64,000 nucleotides of DNA from Teretinema zuelzerae (GTDB lineage: Bacteria > Spirochaetota > Spirochaetia > Treponematales > Treponemataceae). The stretch lies in assembly GCF_021021555.1 (NCBI RefSeq), contig NZ_JAINWA010000003.1, positions 1,550,001 to 1,614,000 of the forward strand, written 5' to 3'. Position 1 is the stretch's first letter; the number at the start of each line of letters is the position of its first letter. Made by a program: the position numbers and the translations under genes. Positions 25,010 to 29,137 of the stretch are shown one piece after another. The notes under the pieces are model-generated. The model saw nothing but the letters and a program-made list of their open reading frames with translations, was not told the origin of the DNA and ran no database searches.

Positions 25010-25510
25010 ATGAAAATTCCTGTCACCTTAAAACACAAACCTGTTATAACGTGCGAGAACTACGAACAGGTAGACGGACGTTCGGCATATTCGTCCGAAG
25101 CCAAAGGCCTCTCCCTCGGACTTGCGCAATGGAATGAACGCGGCAAGATAGATATCGCGGCAAAGGTCTGGCGTTACACCGGCGAAAAGTGGTCTCGGCA
25201 GTCTGAAGAGCTGCCTTTGCATAGGGTGCTGGATCTATCGTTGCTCATTGTTCAATCGATTCTTCATTTCCGCGAAGCGTATCGTCATCCTGACTTATTC
25301 GACCATGAAAAGCCGGAAATTGGCAAGATCGGCATTCAAGGCGACGCGTTGCGGATGGGAGTTTGCACCGAAAATCCGTGCATTCTCGAAGACATAAAAC
25401 TATTCCGCGACGCATTAGCAAAAGACGATGAACTGTTGGCTGAAAGGCTTCACGCGCTATCTGCATTGCTTCAGGAAGCCGGCTACGGAAGAAACAATCG
25501 GAAGCAATAG
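25010..25510 (+). CDS. Conserved hypothetical protein (DUF6530-like)
   Basis: 166 residues, ATG preceded by AAGGAGTAATT. Soluble, no membrane segments. N-terminal KHKPVITCENYEQVDGRSAYSSEAKGLSLGLAQWNERGK and a Trp-rich KVWRYTGEKWSRQSEELPLHRVLDL core look like a family I recall under the DUF6530 label; no function is known to me. It lies between hisD and the transposase, and its stop is 5 bases from the transposase stop. Divergent from hisD across a shared palindromic region. Confidence 0.6.
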   Translation: MKIPVTLKHKPVITCENYEQVDGRSAYSSEAKGLSLGLAQWNERGKIDIAAKVWRYTGEKWSRQSEELPLHRVLDLSLLIVQSILHFREAYRHPDLFDHEKPEIGKIGIQGDALRMGVCTENPCILEDIKLFRDALAKDDELLAERLHALSALLQEAGYGRNNRKQ

Positions 25511-25515
25511 CAGAA

Positions 25516-25998
25516 TTACGACAACCAGGAATCAGGCTCGCTGAGAAATGCGAGCCGACGATTCCTTCTATGCCAGAGGCTTCCCCAAATCCATACATCA
25601 GACCTATCGACAAGACCGGCTTTCACGGGGTTTTCCTCAATATACAAAATTGTCCGCAAGATCTGTCTGATTGAATCGAGAACCCAGGATGCGAACCGAT
25701 CGCCCCAAAAATGCCCTGTTCGGTTATACCTCCTGTTGTATGCTCGCGCGAAAACGCTCATAATCCATTGCATGATCGAAGAGAGGCTTTCTCCCTCGCC
25801 AGGCAGAATGATGATATGAAAATGGTTTCCCATTATCACAAAACTGTCGATCGAGAATCGATATTTCTCATGAGCCCGTTCGAGGACGCTGACAAACAAA
25901 GCTCTTGCCTCGTCGGATTCCAATAGGATCTCGCGATTATTAGTCCGAGCGGCAACATGATACCGTGATCCCGCCCGGAGGAAACGCTTTCTTCTCAT
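25516..25998 (-). CDS. REP-associated tyrosine transposase (RAYT, IS200/Y1 family)
   Basis: 160 residues from the ATG giving MRRKRFLRAG; the frame stays open upstream to 26079, but that part is unlike the family. It has the Y1 HUH motif as HFHIIILP near residue 60 and the catalytic-tyrosine helix AYNRRYNRTGHFWGDRF near 90, followed by a helical C-terminus. RAYTs are single-copy domesticated relatives of IS200 transposases that act on REP sequences. No IS ends are seen. It interrupts the his gene cluster between hisD and hisA-IE. Because RAYTs are usually tied to dispersed palindromic repeats, it is the natural candidate partner of the GGGACAGAG motif family. Confidence 0.85.
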   Translation of the reverse strand: MRRKRFLRAGSRYHVAARTNNREILLESDEARALFVSVLERAHEKYRFSIDSFVIMGNHFHIIILPGEGESLSSIMQWIMSVFARAYNRRYNRTGHFWGDRFASWVLDSIRQILRTILYIEENPVKAGLVDRSDVWIWGSLWHRRNRRLAFLSEPDSWLS

Positions 25999-26041
25999 AC
26001 GGTAAACATGTATGCATAATCGCGTTTCTTGCCCAAAAAAA

Positions 26042-27328
26042 TTACTTTTTGTGCCGACGATCGAGTTCGCCCAGGACATCAGTCCACGACACTCCCTCTC
26101 GATGCATTAATACATTCACGAAATAAATCAAATCGGCACATTCCCACACGACATCGTCTTTAGATTCTGCCTCTGTGAGTTCTTCAGCTTCTTCCAAAAT
26201 CTTTTCACGCACCCGCTCAGGCGTAAGGGTGGCCGTGTAGGAGCCAGGCTTTGGATTCGCGAAACGGTCAGCAATGATCGATGAGAGGAACGGAAGTGTA
26301 TATGCTCTGTCCCCGACAGTCTTAAAACAAGACCATGCTCCGGTGTGACACGTCGGTCCATGAGGCTTTACAGTGGCAAGAACGGCATCGCGGTCGCAAT
26401 CGACGCGTAATTTAACGACATCCAAGGTATTTCCGGATGTTTCGCCTTTCGTCCAAAGAGTCGATCGGGATCTGCTCCAGAAAGTCAATAAACCGGTCGC
26501 AAAGGTTTTTTCAAGCGCTTCTTTGTTTGCATACCCTTGCATAAGAACTTCTCCGTCGTCGCTCTGTGCGATTACAGGAAGAAGAGGGCCTTTTTCCCAG
26601 TCAAGACAAGAGAGAAAACAATCTTTCAACGAGACTTTCTCCGTATAGAGAGCCATTCCCAGCTGAACATCGCATCCGAGCCGCTCGAGCTCTGTCACCT
26701 CTGTCACCGTTGATACGCCGCCTGCAACGACGACGCGGCAAGAGACAGCGGACCGAAGAGCTTTGACCTGTTCGAGATTGATGCCGGTCATTGTGCCTTC
26801 CCGTTCTACGCATGTATACAACAGCTCTGAACAGTATGGTTCAACGGCTTTAGCAGCCCCTATGAGATCCAGTCCGGCAGATTCAGTCCAGCCCTTGACG
26901 GCAATTTTTCCGTCGCGGCTGTCGACAGAAATTATCAGGTGTTCTTTGCCGACGGTATCCGACAATGCCGACAGAAAAGCTGCGTTTATGCCCGCAGAAC
27001 CGTCGGGAAGCGTAAATGCGGCGGACCCGATAATTACCTTCTCAGCTCCCAGGGAAAGAAGCTCCTTCGCTCTTTTCGCGTCGCGTATTCCTCCGCCGAC
27101 GCGAATGTTTCCCTTCCGCAAAAGACGCTGCAAAATCCCTGTGTTAACAGTCGTACCATCCGGATTCGTGTTTCGCAATGCGGCGTCAAGATCGATAACA
27201 GCAACTTCTCCGTATTTATCAAACTCTTTCACCAGCGAATCAGGATCGTCCCGCTCGAGAACTAAATCCTTGCCCTGCCGAAGCTGAACAACTTTTCCGC
27301 CTTTCAAATCTATCGAAGCTATAACCAT
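26042..27328 (-). CDS. HisA-HisI-HisE trifunctional fusion
   Basis: 428 residues. Residues 1-240 are a HisA (ProFAR isomerase) TIM barrel: ASIDLKGGKVVQL with the catalytic Asp, VGGGIRD, VIIGSAAF, SVDSRDGKIAVKGWTE, and VVAGGVST. Residues 241-345 are HisI, phosphoribosyl-AMP cyclohydrolase, with the zinc and magnesium residues in VDCDRDAVL and GPTCHTGAWSCF. Residues 346-428 are HisE, the pyrophosphohydrolase (EEAEELTEAESKDDVVWECADLIYFVNVLMH). Three consecutive-to-adjacent steps (4, 2 and 3 order around ProFAR) are thus on one chain. HisIE fusions are common; HisA joined to HisIE is unusual to my knowledge. HisF and HisH are not in the window. Confidence 0.92.
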   Translation of the reverse strand: MVIASIDLKGGKVVQLRQGKDLVLERDDPDSLVKEFDKYGEVAVIDLDAALRNTNPDGTTVNTGILQRLLRKGNIRVGGGIRDAKRAKELLSLGAEKVIIGSAAFTLPDGSAGINAAFLSALSDTVGKEHLIISVDSRDGKIAVKGWTESAGLDLIGAAKAVEPYCSELLYTCVEREGTMTGINLEQVKALRSAVSCRVVVAGGVSTVTEVTELERLGCDVQLGMALYTEKVSLKDCFLSCLDWEKGPLLPVIAQSDDGEVLMQGYANKEALEKTFATGLLTFWSRSRSTLWTKGETSGNTLDVVKLRVDCDRDAVLATVKPHGPTCHTGAWSCFKTVGDRAYTLPFLSSIIADRFANPKPGSYTATLTPERVREKILEEAEELTEAESKDDVVWECADLIYFVNVLMHREGVSWTDVLGELDRRHKK

Positions 27329-27380: not shown

Positions 27381-28028
27381 TTAACTGGTTAACGTACCCT
27401 TGGTGCTCGGAATCCGTCCAATAATTCGCGCGTCCCGCTCAACCGCTTCAGACAAGGCGCGCCCGGCGGCCTTGAAAGCCCCTTCAATTTTGTGATGGTC
27501 GCTTCTGCCTCGAAGTACATCAAGATGCAGGTTGCATTTTGCTCCGACGACGAAGCCCTGCCAAAAATCAGGCACCGTATCTGTCTGGAACGCCGAAAAC
27601 GAGGATCCCCCGGACACCAGAGGGACAGAGGAAATGTTCAGTTCGCACGACAAATACGGGCGCCCACCGAAATCGACAGCAGCGCGGATTAATGCTTCAT
27701 CCATCGGGAAAAGCGATGAACCGGCGCGTTTGATTCCTGCTCTGTCCCCAAGCGCTTTATCGAACAGACATCCCAATACGATTCCGGTATCTTCAACTGT
27801 GTGATGCTGGTCGACTATCAAATCGCCTGATATCGACCCGCTCAGATCGAATAAACCGTGCTTGCAAAAAGAGGCAAGCATGTGGGCGAGAAAACCGATA
27901 GGACACGCAACATCGCAATTACCCGTTCCGTCGATATTCAGCGTCAAGGATATGCTGGTTTCAGCGGTTTTCCGCTCTATCATGGCCGTTCGGCTGCTAG
28001 TGGAATACACGGCGGAAGAATTGTTCAT
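27381..28028 (-). CDS. hisB: Imidazoleglycerol-phosphate dehydratase
   Basis: 215 residues, monofunctional IGPD (no phosphatase domain). Metal-binding histidine motifs are seen as HMLASFCKHGLFD, DQHHTVEDTGIVLG near 75-88, and RSDHHKIEGAFKAAGRAL near 175. It removes water from imidazoleglycerol phosphate in step 6 of histidine synthesis. The start overlaps the hisG stop by 4 bases (ATGA). The N-terminal 15 residues are Ser-rich and extra. Two GGGACAGAG copies (27622 and 27740) are convergent within it. Confidence 0.95.
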   Translation of the reverse strand: MNNSSAVYSTSSRTAMIERKTAETSISLTLNIDGTGNCDVACPIGFLAHMLASFCKHGLFDLSGSISGDLIVDQHHTVEDTGIVLGCLFDKALGDRAGIKRAGSSLFPMDEALIRAAVDFGGRPYLSCELNISSVPLVSGGSSFSAFQTDTVPDFWQGFVVGAKCNLHLDVLRGRSDHHKIEGAFKAAGRALSEAVERDARIIGRIPSTKGTLTS

Positions 28029-28879
28029 GGCATGACCTTTCTCAATTCGTATTCAAGAATATCGGTAGCCCCGAGACTTTTCAGTTTGGGCAACAGGGTC
28101 GGAGCTTCGCTTTTCTTGACGACTATTTTTATCGCGTAGCCGTCGTCGCCGTACAAGGGCGCGACAGTGGGGCTCTTCATCGCGGGGATTCCGCTCACAA
28201 GATCGCTGAATCGGGCTTTTGAAACATTCATTTCAAGCATCACCCGGTTTTTAGCGGCCAAGACGGACTCGAAGAGCATTTTTAGCTCTTGAATTTTTTT
28301 GCTTTTAGCGGGATCTGCCATTGCTTCCTTGGAGGCGAACATGCGGGTAGAGCTCTCCATGATGGTATCGACGATGCGCAACCCGTTCTCGATGAGGGTG
28401 CGACCGGTGGCGGTATTGTCGATAATCATGTCGGCGTCGTCGGGAGGGAATACTTCGGTCGCACCGTAAGTTCTAACCGTCAAATACTTCATATTTTGAG
28501 TCTTGAGCCAGGCTTCCGCGTTATTCACATATTCGGTTGCTACGATTACTCGTTTTGACCGAAGCGCCGCATCGTCAAGATCATTCGGCACAGCGGCTAC
28601 TATTCTCACCTTGTCGAAACCCAAATCCATAATTTCAACGACGTCGGCCGATGTTTCGCGGATCCAATCGATTCCGGTAAACCCGACATCGTGAGCCCCG
28701 AGCTCGAGAAGCTTGCCGATATTCTGAGGTTTCATAACCTTGGCTTCAAGATCGTCCTGATTCACAGTCGGACGATAAGCCCGCTCCGGGAGATATATGT
28801 CTATACCGGCGTCGGAAAACAATTTTGTTACATTCTCATAAATTCTGCCCTTCGGCAATAAAATCTTCAGCTTCTCCAT
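28025..28879 (-). CDS. hisG: ATP phosphoribosyltransferase (long form)
   Basis: 284 residues from the ATG (MEKLKILLPKGR) preceded by AAGGGAG; the frame extends further upstream, through the terminator hairpin, but that start is not credible. Long-form HisG with the C-terminal regulatory domain (SARFSDLVSGIPAMKSPTVAPLYGDDGYAIKIVVKK), so no HisZ is needed and histidine feedback is expected. DMIIDNTATGRTLIENGLR is the PRPP-binding loop near 150. First gene of the hisG-hisB-hisA/IE operon, behind a histidine attenuator. Confidence 0.96.
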   Translation of the reverse strand: MEKLKILLPKGRIYENVTKLFSDAGIDIYLPERAYRPTVNQDDLEAKVMKPQNIGKLLELGAHDVGFTGIDWIRETSADVVEIMDLGFDKVRIVAAVPNDLDDAALRSKRVIVATEYVNNAEAWLKTQNMKYLTVRTYGATEVFPPDDADMIIDNTATGRTLIENGLRIVDTIMESSTRMFASKEAMADPAKSKKIQELKMLFESVLAAKNRVMLEMNVSKARFSDLVSGIPAMKSPTVAPLYGDDGYAIKIVVKKSEAPTLLPKLKSLGATDILEYELRKVMP

Positions 28880-28956
28880 TGATGACTCCCTTATAATGTC
28901 AGAATACATATACCTATCGGCACGCTGCCGTAAATTCCAAAACCGACGCCTGAGAA

Positions 28957-29006
28957 TAAAAAAAGCCGCTGAAACCGGTTCTTTCAACTCCCGGCTTCAG
29001 CGGCTC
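28957..29006 (-). terminator. Attenuator terminator of the his operon
   Basis: On the minus strand, a stem of ten perfect pairs (AGCCGCTGAA with TTCAGCGGCT) extended by four more (CCGG/CCGG) after one mismatch, arms 28991-29005 and 28964-28978, followed directly by seven T. It lies between the histidine leader peptide and hisG, which is the classic layout of transcription attenuation. Confidence 0.9.
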
Positions 29007-29035
29007 TATATGCATGCGCATACCATCACCTGCTG

Positions 29036-29098
29036 TTATCCAGGAATATCTTCCGCGTGGAGGTGATGATGATGGTTCAACATTGCTACTGTACTCAT
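29036..29098 (-). CDS. hisL: Histidine operon leader peptide
   Basis: A 20-codon frame ending in TAA: MSTVAMLNHHHHLHAEDIPG. Five of six consecutive residues are His (codons CAT CAT CAT CAC CTC CAC). It lies between a TTGACA/TTTACT promoter and a rho-independent terminator in front of hisG. Ribosome stalling at these codons when histidyl-tRNA is scarce should favour an antiterminator and let transcription enter hisG. AGGA lies five bases before the ATG. Confidence 0.93.
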   Translation of the reverse strand: MSTVAMLNHHHHLHAEDIPG

Positions 29099-29107
29099 TT
29101 CAATCCT

Positions 29108-29137
29108 AGTAAACTGTGATTTCATTGGTTTTGTCAA
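29108..29137 (-). promoter_or_regulatory. Promoter of the his operon
   Basis: Minus strand TTGACA (29137-29132), 18-base spacer, TTTACT (29113-29108), 9 bases before the leader-peptide ATG. The -35 box overlaps the stop codon of the upstream gph gene. Confidence 0.75.

Follow-up and report, generated by a model that had tools for sequence, protein, structure and literature searches.

Going by the text available of a survey of such systems, Proteobacteria are known to have histidine attenuators, and some Firmicutes are predicted to have them (PMC9413887). The enterobacterial hisL region, as the accessible parts of two sources describe it, places a leader peptide with a His run, a terminator and a competing antiterminator before the his operon (PMC9413887, PMC3896937). 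Candidate his attenuators with predicted His-leader peptides are given, in the portion of the survey at hand, for the Bacillus cereus group, Peptostreptococcaceae and Erysipelotrichales; the terms ‘spirochaet’ and ‘Treponema’ are both absent from its main text (PMC9413887).

In two other systems, again described here from partial texts, the leader peptide begins at or next to the 5′ end of the RNA. The leader ATG of Sinorhizobium meliloti trpL (peTrpL), which acts by transcription attenuation, is the RNA 5′ end (PMC7298713), and in Corynebacterium glutamicum the transcription start and the start of IlvL, the ilvBNC leader, are one nucleotide apart (PMC11857589). Transcription-start mapping has found many leaderless transcripts in Leptospira (PMC5243855), and Spirochaetes are among the groups named for predicted leaderless genes (PMC3160421), according to the available text of both reports. 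A literature search lying mostly outside subscription journals gave no report of spirochaete his attenuation among the matches listed (title and start of abstract), and the combination of a leaderless leader with a his attenuator in spirochaetes was not found in the literature searched, a provisional result.

Here we analyse the region upstream of hisG in a window of 64,000 nucleotides, the whole stretch of DNA under study, from the spirochaete Teretinema zuelzerae. We put at about 0.88 the probability that this region controls the his operon by ribosome-mediated transcription attenuation, with a leader that would be loaded at a leaderless 5′ end. The basis is sequence, promoter geometry, the terminator, predicted competing folds and recurrence in relatives.

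A histidine leader ahead of hisG

The first gene of the putatively regulated operon is hisG, encoding ATP phosphoribosyltransferase (28025–28879, minus strand, ATG at 28879), as confirmed by Pfam matches to HisG and HisG_C. It is followed on the same strand by hisB (27381–28028, imidazoleglycerol-phosphate dehydratase domain) and then by a hisA–hisI–hisE fusion (26042–27328). The fusion is a single ORF of 428 aa that carries HisA, HisI (PRA-CH) and HisE (PRA-PH) domains in one polypeptide. Its end is overlapped by a gene with a Y1_Tnp (IS200-like) transposase domain (25516–26079, minus strand), past which a plus-strand ORF (25010–25510) lies ahead of hisD.

Upstream of hisG, the initial annotation had described a TTGACA/TTTACT promoter, a 20-residue leader peptide with HHHHLH and a strong terminator hairpin with seven T, in that order on the minus strand, and its coordinates and description hold. 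The −35 hexamer TTGACA (29132–29137) and the −10 hexamer TTTACT (29108–29113) can be read in the sequence with an 18-nt spacer between them, and the promoter recurs in relatives, with TTGAC invariant when the window is aligned with its 11 nearest hisG loci. The −35 box overlaps the stop codon of an upstream HAD-hydrolase gene. From the spacing to the −10 box, transcription would be expected to start at about 29102–29100. The leader ATG (29098–29096), 9 nt past the −10 box, opens an ORF of 20 codons, MSTVAMLNHHHHLHAEDIPG (29036–29098), which is read directly from the sequence, ends at TAA (29038–29036) and holds the putative regulatory codons HHHHLH at codons 9–14 (29057–29074). Short ORFs with at least 4 His per six residues arose in 10 of 2,000 dinucleotide shuffles of the window’s 500-nt upstream region.

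The intrinsic terminator (28958–29006) combines a 16-bp stem, a 12-nt loop and seven T (28964–28958); its hairpin (29006–28963) has a computed energy of −30.8 kcal/mol, and the T-run sits 79 nt ahead of hisG. As a whole, the RNA from 29100 to 28950 has a predicted folding energy of −56.2 kcal/mol (z = −5.55 relative to 200 shuffles). Neither promoter nor terminator is listed by the built-in scans, yet both are present in the sequence and recurrent in relatives: the promoter is missed because the scan demands an A at position 2 of the −10 box, which TTTACT does not have, and the terminator because its loop of 12 exceeds the scan’s limit of 8.

An Rfam search of the window and 20 related loci gave no family at gathering score, His_leader and T-box included; the former (RF00514) represents the enterobacterial his leader. 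At a permissive E-value the leader region matched only microRNA, snoRNA and lncRNA models, far below gathering scores; the best of them fell onto the terminator stem, and all were rejected.

Recurrence among hisG loci of relatives

A scan of a collection of species genomes gave 80 hisG loci, all spirochaetal by title, which together with the window make 81. A His-rich short ORF (at least 3 His per six residues) lies upstream of hisG in 39 of the 81, and a strong His ORF is missing in 42; a narrower initial filter had found one in 36 of the 80 relatives. For the 80 loci whose upstream DNA spans at least 100 nt, the count of 39 compares with a mean of 2.3 and a maximum of 6 in 40 shuffled sets of 80 loci, and at the stricter threshold of at least 4 His per six residues the count is 33 of 80, against 0.075 in shuffled sets.

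One locus, L070, whose ORF ends 2 nt before hisG, was left out of the structure work, leaving 38. A hairpin with a T-run was found between leader stop and hisG in all 38 leaders scored. When the window is compared with its 11 nearest loci, the terminator stem covaries, with 19 cells changed on both sides compared with 7.7 after shuffling; 92.4% of cells are paired and all slid registers are worse. Adding 21 leaders from a second family of Spirochaetia to the 38 identified purely by His content gives a set of 59, whose start codons are ATG in 57 cases and GTG in 2, and 47 of which contain both CAT and CAC.

Carriers of the leader include Brucepastera parasyntrophica (Treponemataceae) and Breznakiella homolactica (Breznakiellaceae); a His leader was not seen upstream of hisG in Treponema parvum or T. 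socranskii. Weaker or run-on His ORFs whose promoter spacing is the same occur at six loci (L026, L040, L062, L063, L064 and L068), and, by eye, L066 and L072 have only a terminator-like remnant. At four Treponema loci without a His leader (L015, L016, L045 and L046), a −10-like box was seen by eye a few nucleotides before hisG, as if the attenuator had been lost and hisG itself had turned leaderless.

Leader start codons at promoter distance

In the window’s clade the −10 box ends 5–10 nt ahead of the leader start codon and TTGAC is invariant. A search of the 200 nt leading up to the first His codon, with the distance unconstrained, placed the end of the best-scoring promoter 5–10 nt upstream of the start codon for 37 of the 38 leaders identified by His content, two of them as ties; the promoter region of the remaining leader (L076) is cut by the contig end. 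For Breznakiella-type leaders the distance from −10 box to start codon is mostly 6 or 7 nt, so that the expected transcription start falls on the ATG. Shine–Dalgarno-like 4-mers were found ahead of 7 of the 59 leaders, compared with 38 of 38 hisG starts. The window’s AGGA (29107–29104) is one of the seven; separated from the leader ATG by 5 nt, it comes straight after the −10 box and therefore upstream of the expected start, where it should not be transcribed. Because the start codons lie 5–10 nt past the −10 box, mostly without a Shine–Dalgarno sequence, the leader peptide is probably read from leaderless RNA, a point missed in the initial annotation.

The same geometry was sought genome-wide. 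The window’s own genome has 45 leaderless-type promoter–ATG sites versus 30 with a reversed pattern, and 23 of 30 promoter–ATG loci fetched open ORFs of at least 100 aa; for a genome of the second family (G386) there were 38 such sites versus 5 in the reversed-pattern control, and 23 of 30 loci open ORFs of about 100 aa or more. Strong promoters a few nucleotides before the start codons of long genes suggest that leaderless mRNAs are widespread in these spirochaetes.

A scan of the own-genome sites for other short leaders showed none with a terminator-like arrangement. One site (L294, minus strand, contig C1 near 993818–993859) has an 8-codon ORF, MLLLVVTS, 9 nt past a −10 box and ahead of a gene that looks trpE-like by eye, with no T-run after it. 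A search for leaderless leaders with Trp codons matched 28 of 297 genomes of the class, none convincing when read by eye.

Predicted competing folds

Ribosome-mediated his attenuation, as originally proposed for this locus, calls for an alternative antiterminator pairing, and folding predicts a competing one at −17.2 kcal/mol, which supports the proposal; the His codons, the terminator and stall-dependent refolding in the models recur in relatives. The antiterminator 5′ strand, CCTGGATAACAGCAGGTG (29027–29044), comprises the last two codons, the stop codon and part of segment 2, and is predicted to pair with segment 3, AGCCGCTGAAGCCGGGA (28989–29005), formed by the terminator 5′ arm and loop edge; this pairing was equalled by 9 of 200 shuffles. 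The core of segment 2, GGTGATG (29024–29030), lies right past the leader stop codon and would, when no ribosome is present, pair with segment 1, CATCACC (29062–29068), within the His codons. The protector pairing between the His codons and AGGTGATGG was equalled by 6 of 200 shuffles, and the protector hairpin is present in the ribosome-free fold computed before the terminator arm exists. With its GGTG segment used in both predicted pairings, the window’s leader region would follow the classical four-segment plan.

We folded the 38 loci with a ribosome on the middle His codon or at the stop and with RNA polymerase just short of the terminator 3′ arm, using assumed values for the size of the ribosome mask. 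Sequestration of the terminator 5′ arm averaged 0.76 for a ribosome on the middle His codon, all 38 loci exceeding 0.4, and 0.27 for a ribosome at the stop, where 6 of 38 exceeded 0.4; this difference is partly trivial because the stop-codon mask hides more RNA. The fair test is therefore the comparison with shuffled upstream segments, which gave 0.55 (s.d. of set means 0.033) against the real 0.76. In the ribosome-free fold the arm is still sequestered above 0.4 in 29 of 38 loci, so the models give no clear prediction of termination in the absence of translation. On average the antiterminator stage is 11.6 kcal/mol less stable than the final fold; read-through must therefore depend on the order of folding.

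At single loci, at most 10 of 200 shuffles were as good as the real antiterminator pairing in just 8 of 38 cases, and as good as the real protector pairing in just 7 of 38. The antiterminator helices show no covariation in the window’s register (83.3% of cells paired versus 81.3% shuffled, with one pair changed on both sides), although such column counts are a weak test because registers can slip by three within the repeating GGTGGTG segment. In the Breznakiella and termite-gut set, the predicted antiterminator strand lies mostly within the ORF and can begin as far as about 34 nt upstream of the stop; none of the protector pairings with leader codons was distinct from shuffles.

Distribution over the class Spirochaetia

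A hisG-anchored search of the second family of the class found hisG in 44 of 61 genomes. Of these, 30 hisG loci were delivered; in 23 of them a search with no promoter criterion picked up a His-rich ORF within 350 nt. A stricter search that included a promoter criterion gave a leader in 21 of the 30 loci, with a terminator candidate in 18 of these 21, one of them weak; the promoter result is circular for these 21 leaders among the 59. Redone without the promoter criterion, the test found the top-scoring promoter to sit at the start codon for 21 of the 23 His ORFs, one of them only among ten ties, the exceptions being L204 and L221.

Four hisG leaders from another family of the window’s order (L185–L188) show the same layout. 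A pattern search of 392 genomes matched 152, with many matches resembling pieces of coding genes. Leaders were found in 17 of 20 leader-like regions chosen by eye from this search, which is not an unbiased count because of that choice, and several of the 20 overlap the second-family set. The predicted his attenuator thus occurs across the class Spirochaetia, a point absent from the initial annotation.

At one locus of the window’s order (L189, 100–350), a leaderless His-rich ORF, MFMKTVGFKQHHHHSHAAPSRTF, lies ahead of a gene that by eye resembles a sodium:solute symporter, and its hairpin is weak. This gene is possibly a histidine transporter under similar control.

Proposed mechanism and alternatives

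We infer leaderless loading, ribosome stalling and read-through into hisG. RNA polymerase would start a few bases ahead of the leader ATG, and a ribosome would load on the leaderless 5′ end. With ample charged His-tRNA, the ribosome would run on to the stop; segment 2 and the last codons would be covered, and the terminator would form ahead of hisG. With charged His-tRNA scarce, it would stall on the His run and leave the last codons and segment 2 exposed; these would pair with the emerging terminator 5′ arm, giving read-through into hisG.

The same attenuator might instead use conventional initiation, with transcription starting farther upstream and AGGA (29107–29104) acting as a Shine–Dalgarno sequence. 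The 5 nt between AGGA and the window’s ATG would suit such a role, but the motif abuts the −10 box and should precede the transcription start, and it is missing in most of the 11 nearest relatives (CAAACTGCAATG and similar). Together with the scarcity of Shine–Dalgarno-like 4-mers (just 7 of 59 leaders, the window’s among them) and the position of the best promoter, which is at the start codon for 37 of the 38 leaders, this makes conventional initiation unlikely in our view.

Two further explanations would remove stalling altogether. If the His-rich ORF were a product of chance or a relic, the locus would hold merely a constitutive terminator ahead of hisG; the ORF is indeed missing from about half of the loci and the antiterminator pairing shows no covariation, but chance would hardly give at least 4 His per six residues in 33 of 80 loci where 0.075 is expected, a terminator accompanies 38 of 38 leaders, and His is kept while both synonymous codons are in use. 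We consider this the least probable of the explanations. Control at the level of translation or by another RNA sensor (a T-box, riboswitch or RNA-binding protein) is also highly improbable, given that no Rfam family reached gathering score in the window or 20 related loci and that a T-run terminator closes the switch region, 79 nt before hisG in the window.

Discussion

Beyond the window, we think it likely that a class-wide his attenuator of the Spirochaetia reads its sensor peptide off leaderless RNA without a Shine–Dalgarno step, and that the Breznakiella/termite-gut branch has a rebuilt switch with the sensor retained. The latter part follows from the predicted antiterminator strand in the Breznakiella and termite-gut loci, which lies inside the leader ORF and therefore points to rebuilding of the switch around a leaderless sensor that was retained.

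If attenuation on leaderless leaders is the correct reading, the ribosome would load at the transcription start itself and would be coupled to RNA polymerase from the first bases. His attenuation would then reach a phylum for which no report was found in the literature searched, and leaderless translation could carry timing-critical regulation in a lineage beyond Sinorhizobium and Corynebacterium. These loci would offer a compact natural system for studying how ribosomes on leaderless RNA match the pace of RNA polymerase, and they predict a class of very short peptides that tend to escape ordinary gene calling.

The following comparisons draw on the available portions of the reports cited above. 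With enterobacterial hisL, the spirochaete region shares a short leader with a His run, a terminator and a competing antiterminator ahead of the his operon; it differs in having no Rfam match at gathering score, in a start codon at promoter distance without a Shine–Dalgarno sequence, and in belonging to a different phylum. S. meliloti trpL likewise combines a leader peptide at the RNA 5′ end (here predicted) with transcription attenuation, but it senses tryptophan, belongs to an alphaproteobacterium and has an experimentally mapped 5′ end. The start of C. glutamicum IlvL is similarly near the transcription start (here judged from promoter spacing), whereas that system senses branched-chain amino acids, comes from an actinobacterium and is mutation-tested. 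The Firmicutes his candidates also have a predicted His-leader peptide, a terminator and an antiterminator, but are from another phylum, and for them leaderless initiation is not mentioned in the text available of that source (PMC9413887). Leaderless leader peptides and his attenuators are thus each known; the literature searched gave no case of their combination in spirochaetes, for which two architectures are predicted here.
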